NCBI GenBank assembly: GCA_902567495.1
Contig: CACFMO010000006.1
Location: 1-64,000, forward strand
DNA length: 64,000 bases
Direction of reading: 5' to 3'
DNA from: an uncultured Pelagibacteraceae bacterium
GTDB lineage: Bacteria; Pseudomonadota; Alphaproteobacteria; Pelagibacterales; Pelagibacteraceae
Part shown: positions 28,203 through 28,773 of the stretch, piece after piece
How positions within the stretch are numbered: position 1 is the first letter of the stretch
How the letters are laid out: the number at the start of each line of letters is the position of its first letter
Translations under genes and position numbers: made by a program
The notes under the pieces: model-generated
Told to the model about the DNA's origin: nothing
Database searches by the model: none
What the model saw: only the letters and a program-made list of their open reading frames with translations

Positions 28203-28279
<77 letters not shown>

Positions 28280-28288
28280 ATAAGATTT

Positions 28289-28492
28289 TTACAAACGCTT
28301 AAGGTTAACAGCTTGTAATTTACCTTTTTCCTCTTTTATTTCAAACTCTATTTCTTGATTTTCTTTGAGAACTCTTAATTTTGATTTTTCTAATGATGTT
28401 ACATGTAAGAAAATATCTTTTTCACTATCATTGTCCTTAATAAATCCATAACCCTTTTTAGAGTCAAACCATTTAACTTTACCAGTGGCCAT
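28289..28492 (-). CDS. Cold-shock domain protein (CspA family)
   Basis: 67-residue single cold-shock domain that binds single-stranded nucleic acid. RNP1 is KKGYGFIKDN (about 13-22) and RNP2 is DIFLHVTSLE (about 26-35); the start MATGKVKWFDSKKG is canonical. It probably acts as an RNA chaperone during translation. It lies in a short leftward group rpsU-csp-tRNA-fMet with 22 nt and 9 nt gaps, all concerned with translation. Confidence 0.94.
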   Translation of the reverse strand: MATGKVKWFDSKKGYGFIKDNDSEKDIFLHVTSLEKSKLRVLKENQEIEFEIKEEKGKLQAVNLKRL

Positions 28493-28514: not shown

Positions 28515-28709
28515 TTATAACCTATTTCTTAGACGCTGAAACTTTTTTGCTCTTTTGATGTTTTCAAGACGAATTCTCTTTTTTTTCTCCGAAGGTTTTT
28601 CATAAATACTCTTCATTTTTATAATTTTAAAGAAACCTTCTTTTTGCAATCTTCTTTTAAGAACTCTTATTGCTTGCTCTACATTATTATCTTTAACGTC
28701 TATTTTAAT
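28515..28709 (-). CDS. rpsU: 30S ribosomal protein S21, apparently started at ATT
   Basis: A 64-residue S21 is encoded on the minus strand: IKIDVKDNNVEQAIRVLKRR, then KEGFFKIIKMKSIYEKPSEK and a basic tail ending RLRNRL. It aligns with alphaproteobacterial S21, whose initiator methionine corresponds to the ATT codon at 28709-28707. No ATG, GTG or TTG exists in frame between the upstream in-frame stop and that codon; the first in-frame ATG lies halfway through the protein. A perfect GGAGG (28718-28714) stands 4 nt before the ATT. An out-of-frame ATG overlaps this GGAGG and opens a six-codon frame. S21 helps the 30S subunit select messages; an ATT start would allow initiation-factor-dependent control. 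Confidence 0.85.
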   Translation of the reverse strand: MKIDVKDNNVEQAIRVLKRRLQKEGFFKIIKMKSIYEKPSEKKKRIRLENIKRAKKFQRLRNRL

Positions 28710-28773
28710 AAATCCTCCATTAATAAATTAGGGCAGTAGTTAACATGTTGGAATGTCATTGTCTATATAGGAT

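Follow-up and report, generated by a model that had tools for sequence, protein, structure and literature searches.

Where does rpsU, the gene for ribosomal protein bS21, begin in an uncultured Pelagibacteraceae bacterium whose S21 frame has no ATG, GTG or TTG at its start, and could this start be a point of control? The locus lies on contig CACFMO010000006.1 of assembly GCA_902567495.1, positions 1-64,000 of the forward strand; 'the window' denotes this whole stretch of 64,000 nucleotides.

The start of rpsU in the window

The S21 frame extends from stop to stop over positions 28727-28515 of the minus strand, and its product belongs to the bS21 family (Pfam Ribosomal_S21, PF01165; 51.8 bits, E 7e-14, curated cut-off 27). 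ORF calling restricted to ATG, GTG and TTG recovers just 44 aa of it, beginning with the TTG at 28649. The default start codons thus truncate the gene, as foreseen in the earlier note on this DNA, which had argued that automatic gene calls would miss a start at ATT preceded by GGAGG. We found the GGAGG at 28718-28714, 4 nt ahead of the ATT at 28709-28707, and this ATT occupies the initiator position of the family in the alignment. The 3' end of the genome's own 16S rRNA, GGATCACCTCCTTTCT, is intact, so that the rpsU Shine-Dalgarno (SD) sequence is able to pair. The features of the locus are as follows, with ATH standing for ATT, ATC or ATA.

28515..28709, minus strand: rpsU (bS21) coding sequence from ATT to stop, 64 aa; Pfam PF01165 match, initiator aligned in 80 of 80 relatives
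28707..28709, minus strand: ATT start codon; ATH in 318 and ATG in 7 of 397 Pelagibacteraceae genomes, SD gone in the ATG clade
28714..28718, minus strand: GGAGG SD, 4 nt ahead of ATT; GGAGG 4-6 nt 5' of the codon in 80 of 80 loci
28737..28765, minus strand: predicted rpsU promoter, TAGACA-17 bp-TAACTA, with TGT before TAACTA; pattern in 80 of 80 loci
28203..28279, minus strand: initiator tRNA-fMet gene, 3' of rpsU and csp; C1:A72 mismatch, same-strand tRNA-Met in 78 of 78 loci
28289..28492, minus strand: csp (cold-shock-type gene) with ATG start, between rpsU and the tRNA gene; ATG in 66 of 66 neighbours read
28700..28720, minus strand: six-codon out-of-frame ORF spanning the SD, not conserved; ATGGAGG in 8 of 80 loci

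We take the ORF at 28289-28492 to be csp from its GKVKWF motif. At codon 3 of rpsU (28701-28703, minus strand), 79 of 80 loci have ATA, although ATT and ATA are about equally frequent inside the gene.

Conservation of the start codon

We searched 397 Pelagibacteraceae genomes for start patterns. The ATH pattern was found in 318 of them and the ATG pattern in seven, both together in none; the other 72 match neither, owing to incompleteness, divergence or another codon. Among the matches listed, nearly all individual ATH rows are ATT and a few are ATC. Second matches to the start pattern occur in two genomes (G323:C12:4890 and 20395; G039:C1:547827) and might reflect duplication or chance. Within the genus, which comprises 31 genomes, all 24 genomes with an S21 match have ATT. 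The best 80 of 239 matches to our query were also read, with ATT at the start in 76, ATA in three and ATC in one; this set leans to Ile because the query itself begins with Ile. Less biased are the pattern counts in the 397 genomes and a set of 28 loci chosen solely by their Pfam match, which has 25 ATT and three ATG. In the 80 loci, GGAGG precedes the codon at a minimal spacing of 4 nt (23 loci), 5 nt (55) or 6 nt (two). ATT is enriched at the start (76 of 80) relative to the internal Ile codons of the same genes, which comprise 113 ATT, 108 ATA and 26 ATC (113 of 247 being ATT; Fisher p 6e-17, with loci that are not independent). A base or assembly error in the window, which nothing suggests beyond the rarity of the codon, is ruled out because 318 of 397 independent genomes share an ATH at this position; the probability of such an error is practically nil.

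Another reading is that translation starts upstream of the ATT, or reaches the gene by re-initiation or frameshifting from an out-of-frame ATG. The six-codon ATG frame across the GGAGG, which the earlier note had linked to translational control, does exist at 28720-28700, but its ATGGAGG is found in only 8 of 80 loci and in 9 of 24 within the genus. We therefore rejected a uORF or frameshift through it, and this small ORF is probably incidental. As for in-frame starts, no ATG, GTG or TTG separates the 5' stop from the ATH in 77 of the 80 loci, and the remaining three have a single canonical codon 11-12 codons upstream. In all five loci of the genera g2, g4 and g5, an in-frame stop (TAG or TAA) comes immediately after GGAGG, so that only one or two non-start codons (GTT, or GCA and AAT) remain ahead of the ATT. 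In favour of an upstream start, 11 of 25 ATT loci in the Pfam-picked set have an in-frame TTG four codons upstream, made by the SD itself (TTGGAGG), which might conceivably act as a start in those loci. No separate SD precedes this TTG, and it is not a general feature, being absent from that place in all 80 loci. One of the 11 loci (L163) has an additional GTG two codons upstream, and L171, of the same set, has an ATG 11 codons upstream.

A natural swap of codon and SD bears on both readings. Seven genomes of one genus have ATG at this codon, and GGAGG is absent in all seven; their SD pairing energies range from +2.0 to -1.1 kcal/mol, versus -9.3 to -11.8 kcal/mol for the 80 ATH loci. A tree built from the gene together with its flanking sequence groups the ATG sequences in a single clade with support 1.0, which arises from within ATT lineages; its ten ATG tips represent the seven genomes, three of which were entered twice. 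The ATG genomes thus record one ATT-to-ATG event with SD loss, not seven. According to the earlier note, relatives with ATG would point to a base error in the window; such relatives do exist, yet as a single derived, SD-less clade with no sign of base error. Since the ATG appears exactly at the ATT position and the SD is lost with it, this compensatory swap pins the ATT as the true start, and it argues against a base error as well as against an upstream start. Altogether, an upstream or re-initiated start is very improbable, and SAR11 rpsU almost certainly starts with ATT. The ATG clade is viable without this codon, which is therefore not indispensable.

Control genes were read in the same way. 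The start is ATG in all 28 uS15 loci of Alphaproteobacteria that were read (30 loci, two unread) and in 66 of 66 csp neighbours (14 of the 80 loci were not read by the script). For rpsU of other Pseudomonadota, outside Alphaproteobacteria, 20 loci were taken, of which one was misread; 17 of the 19 read start with ATG, one with TTG and one with GTG. All 28 infC loci read in the genus (out of 29, L312-L340) start with GTG, which either abuts an in-frame TAA or is separated from it by two codons.

Non-canonical starts are probably not confined to the family. In the sister family of the order, AAGGAGG is followed after 8 nt by ATA (41 loci) or ATC (one locus), with GGAGG in 41 of 42 loci; judging from the spacing, the start would be this ATA rather than the next codon (GTN). 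For the class outside the order, 130 of 135 listed match rows were fetched and 128 read. In most of them a canonical codon coincides with the aligned position or immediately precedes it (GTG 53, ATG 25, TTG 19), and 31 have none there. In 26 of these 31 the codon just ahead of the aligned position is ATC (12), ATA (seven), CTG (five) or ATT (two), in most cases at 7-8 nt from the SD; these 26 loci fall within L187-L303 and represent 26 different families of the sample. The other five have something else at the likely start. In eight of the 31 loci a canonical codon occurs 4-8 codons further upstream, usually within the SD. From the position of these codons we infer that non-canonical rpsU starts occur in many alphaproteobacterial families.

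Few viral relatives of S21 were found. The S21 genes of the Pelagibacter phages HTVC008M and Mosig are annotated with ATG and TTG starts, respectively (L341, L342), both of them ordinary codons, though two isolates are too few for a rule. No solved structure for the N-terminus of an alphaproteobacterial S21 was found at a strict cut-off with an alphaproteobacterial query; with the SAR11 S21 as query, the structure search matched bS21 and mitochondrial chains, organisms not given.

A predicted promoter and leader, and a linked initiator tRNA gene

A TGnTAAC[T/A]A element, with small variants, lies 31-40 nt before the start codon in all 80 loci, and 17 bp ahead of its TAAC is a TAGACA that is invariant save for the second base in one locus. 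These elements are predicted to form the rpsU promoter, with a leader of approximately 20 nt. A generic promoter scan missed it because its -10 element is far from consensus. The conserved NTG at TGnTAAC was considered as the start of a leader ORF and rejected, as frame and stop differ between loci and the site fits a TG-extended -10. Folding of the leader is no better than that of shuffled sequences (z -0.25), and no Rfam leader or known RNA element matches at this position. With its predicted length of ~20 nt, the leader would thus leave little room for a structured operator.

Downstream of rpsU, a tRNA-Met(CAU) gene is found on the same strand 421-442 nt past the ATH in all 78 loci with enough sequence, two of the 80 being cut short. 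In these 78 loci and in the seven ATG loci, the tRNA has C1:A72, the hallmark of initiator tRNA. Its anticodon stem has A29:U41 (78 of 78 and 7 of 7 ATG loci) in the place of the third G:C pair usual in initiator tRNAs. It is the only CAU tRNA among 26 tRNAs found in the source genome, which is incomplete. In the window and similar loci csp intervenes between rpsU and the tRNA gene (csp was read in 66 of 80 loci). The tRNA gene begins 4-7 nt after the rpsU stop in the g3 loci (7 of 7 with ATT and 7 of 7 with ATG), 18-19 nt after it in g2 and 33 nt after it in g5. The loci that show this linkage lie among L025-L104, L305-L311, L430-L436, L438, L439 and L442. No such tRNA gene was detected near rpsU in g4 (2 of 2 loci) or in 60 of 60 loci of the sister family and other Alphaproteobacteria. 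Thus, judging from gene order, rpsU apparently leads an operon with the initiator tRNA gene in most of Pelagibacteraceae. The linkage might have explained why the codon is weak, but we rejected this as a general explanation. Non-AUG starts occur where no tRNA follows, and the weak start codon is therefore independent of the linkage.

Initiation fidelity and a proposed control of bS21 synthesis

IF3-governed non-canonical starts are already known, as is bS21 autoregulation in another phylum, Bacteroidota. According to passages of PMC4611024, IF3 rejects starts other than AUG, GUG and UUG and acts against over-extended SDs, and in Escherichia coli bS21 would clash with the SD helix. Odd start codons paired with strong SDs are described in the available parts of papers on Streptomyces sigR (PMC5472188) and Staphylococcus aureus cvfC1 and ccpN (PMC13009471); the latter also reports that AUU or AUA starts with an extended SD lower translation in S. 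aureus. As far as these partial sources go, infC (AUU/AUC/AUA), pcnB, sigR, cvfC1 and ccpN resemble SAR11 rpsU in their IF3-discriminated codon, their strong or extended SD, their conservation within a clade and the fact that gene callers miss them. The rpsU locus has two sequence traits of this IF3-limited class: ATG, GTG and TTG are absent from the initiator position, and this absence is conserved in relatives, save for ATG in 7 of 397 genomes and the TTG in the SD of 11 of 25 loci. A strong SD compensates for the codon, present as GGAGG in 80 of 80 loci and lost in 7 of 7 ATG genomes.

The earlier note had likened the ATT to that of infC, where such starts allow feedback by IF3. The likeness stands for the kind of codon, but not for its use: with infC starting at GTG in 28 of 28 loci read, IF3 feedback through an ATT on infC is not used in this organism. 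infC lies elsewhere than rpsU, and autogenous control of the infC type, in which the product is IF3, was not found, the product here being bS21. Unlike in infC-type systems, SAR11 rpsU encodes a ribosomal protein that belongs to the initiation platform.

Flavobacterium offers the closest parallel for the gene itself. Passages of PMC9976891 report that ribosomes lacking bS21 translate rpsU better, which makes the gene autoregulated, and that with subunits devoid of the bS21 C-terminus complex formation on rpsU mRNA is IF3-independent. The gene is the same, its SD is strong, and the 30S anti-SD region is where its product acts (PMC9976891, in part). The devices differ: those passages describe an exceptionally strong SD and an anti-SD sequestered by bS21, bS18 and bS6 in Flavobacterium, as opposed to AUU and GGAGG in SAR11, and AUU does not occur in the main text of that paper. 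The SD strength is below -13 kcal/mol in Flavobacterium (PMC9976891, in part) as compared with -9.3 to -11.8 kcal/mol in SAR11, the SAR11 values having been computed by another program than that paper's, for a 12-nt tail. In the alphaproteobacterium Caulobacter, rare non-canonical starts, CTG and near-cognate codons, were also mapped by ribosome profiling, according to parts of PMC4117421; rpsU and S21 do not occur in the main text of that paper. The portions available of PMC5909447, PMC3353972, PMC10117765 and PMC10783764 contain nothing on the rpsU start codon. Full-text searches of an open-access library, which lacks most subscription journals, yielded no report of a conserved AUU or AUA start of rpsU or of an operon of rpsU with an initiator tRNA gene.

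Translational control of S21, as proposed in the earlier note, appears plausible. In the mechanism that we propose, SAR11 rpsU would be read in vivo from AUU, or from AUA or AUC in some species, with the strong GGAGG recruiting ribosomes on a very short leader. As AUU-class codons are disfavoured by IF3, the strong SD would bring the ribosome to a start throttled by initiation fidelity. The rate of bS21 synthesis would then depend on how the initiation machinery stands and would increase when IF3 discrimination is weak relative to the 30S subunits. Release might be greatest on bS21-free 30S subunits, which differ in the behaviour of their anti-SD and platform. Since the initiator tRNA is apparently part of the transcript in most Pelagibacteraceae, a single promoter would supply two components of initiation, and the weak codon would set the protein share of the common transcript.

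Alternatively, the AUU might merely lower rpsU translation from a strong promoter to a constant level, for instance because the transcript must make much initiator tRNA, with no feedback involved. The ATG clade is in line with this explanation, having exchanged AUU and SD for an SD-less AUG as though total strength had been maintained, and the conserved promoter and downstream initiator tRNA gene suggest high transcription. Nevertheless, a weak codon combined with a strengthened SD is a roundabout route to a constant, and non-AUG starts without a downstream tRNA gene also argue against it. The present data fit a fixed low setting as well as regulation, but we consider such fixed tuning possible though rather unlikely. 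Control of bS21 synthesis by initiation fidelity, possibly autoregulatory, is in our view reasonably probable on the comparative evidence, and feedback by bS21 itself is a tentative and rather less probable proposition. More speculatively, and with a low likelihood, the fidelity sensor may have moved from infC to rpsU, such that rpsU(AUU) and the initiator tRNA would form a homeostat reading the balance of IF3, initiator tRNA and bS21-free 30S subunits, which pelagiphage bS21 genes with ordinary starts would bypass.

If the start is as proposed, a ribosomal protein gene of a very abundant bacterial group uses, family-wide, a start codon that standard gene callers ignore, and the annotation of S21 in SAR11 and in many Alphaproteobacteria would need correcting. 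Whether initiation fidelity governs bS21 production also becomes a tractable question at this locus. The locus would link the rpsU autoregulation of Bacteroidota to a different device, tied in this family to an initiator tRNA gene.
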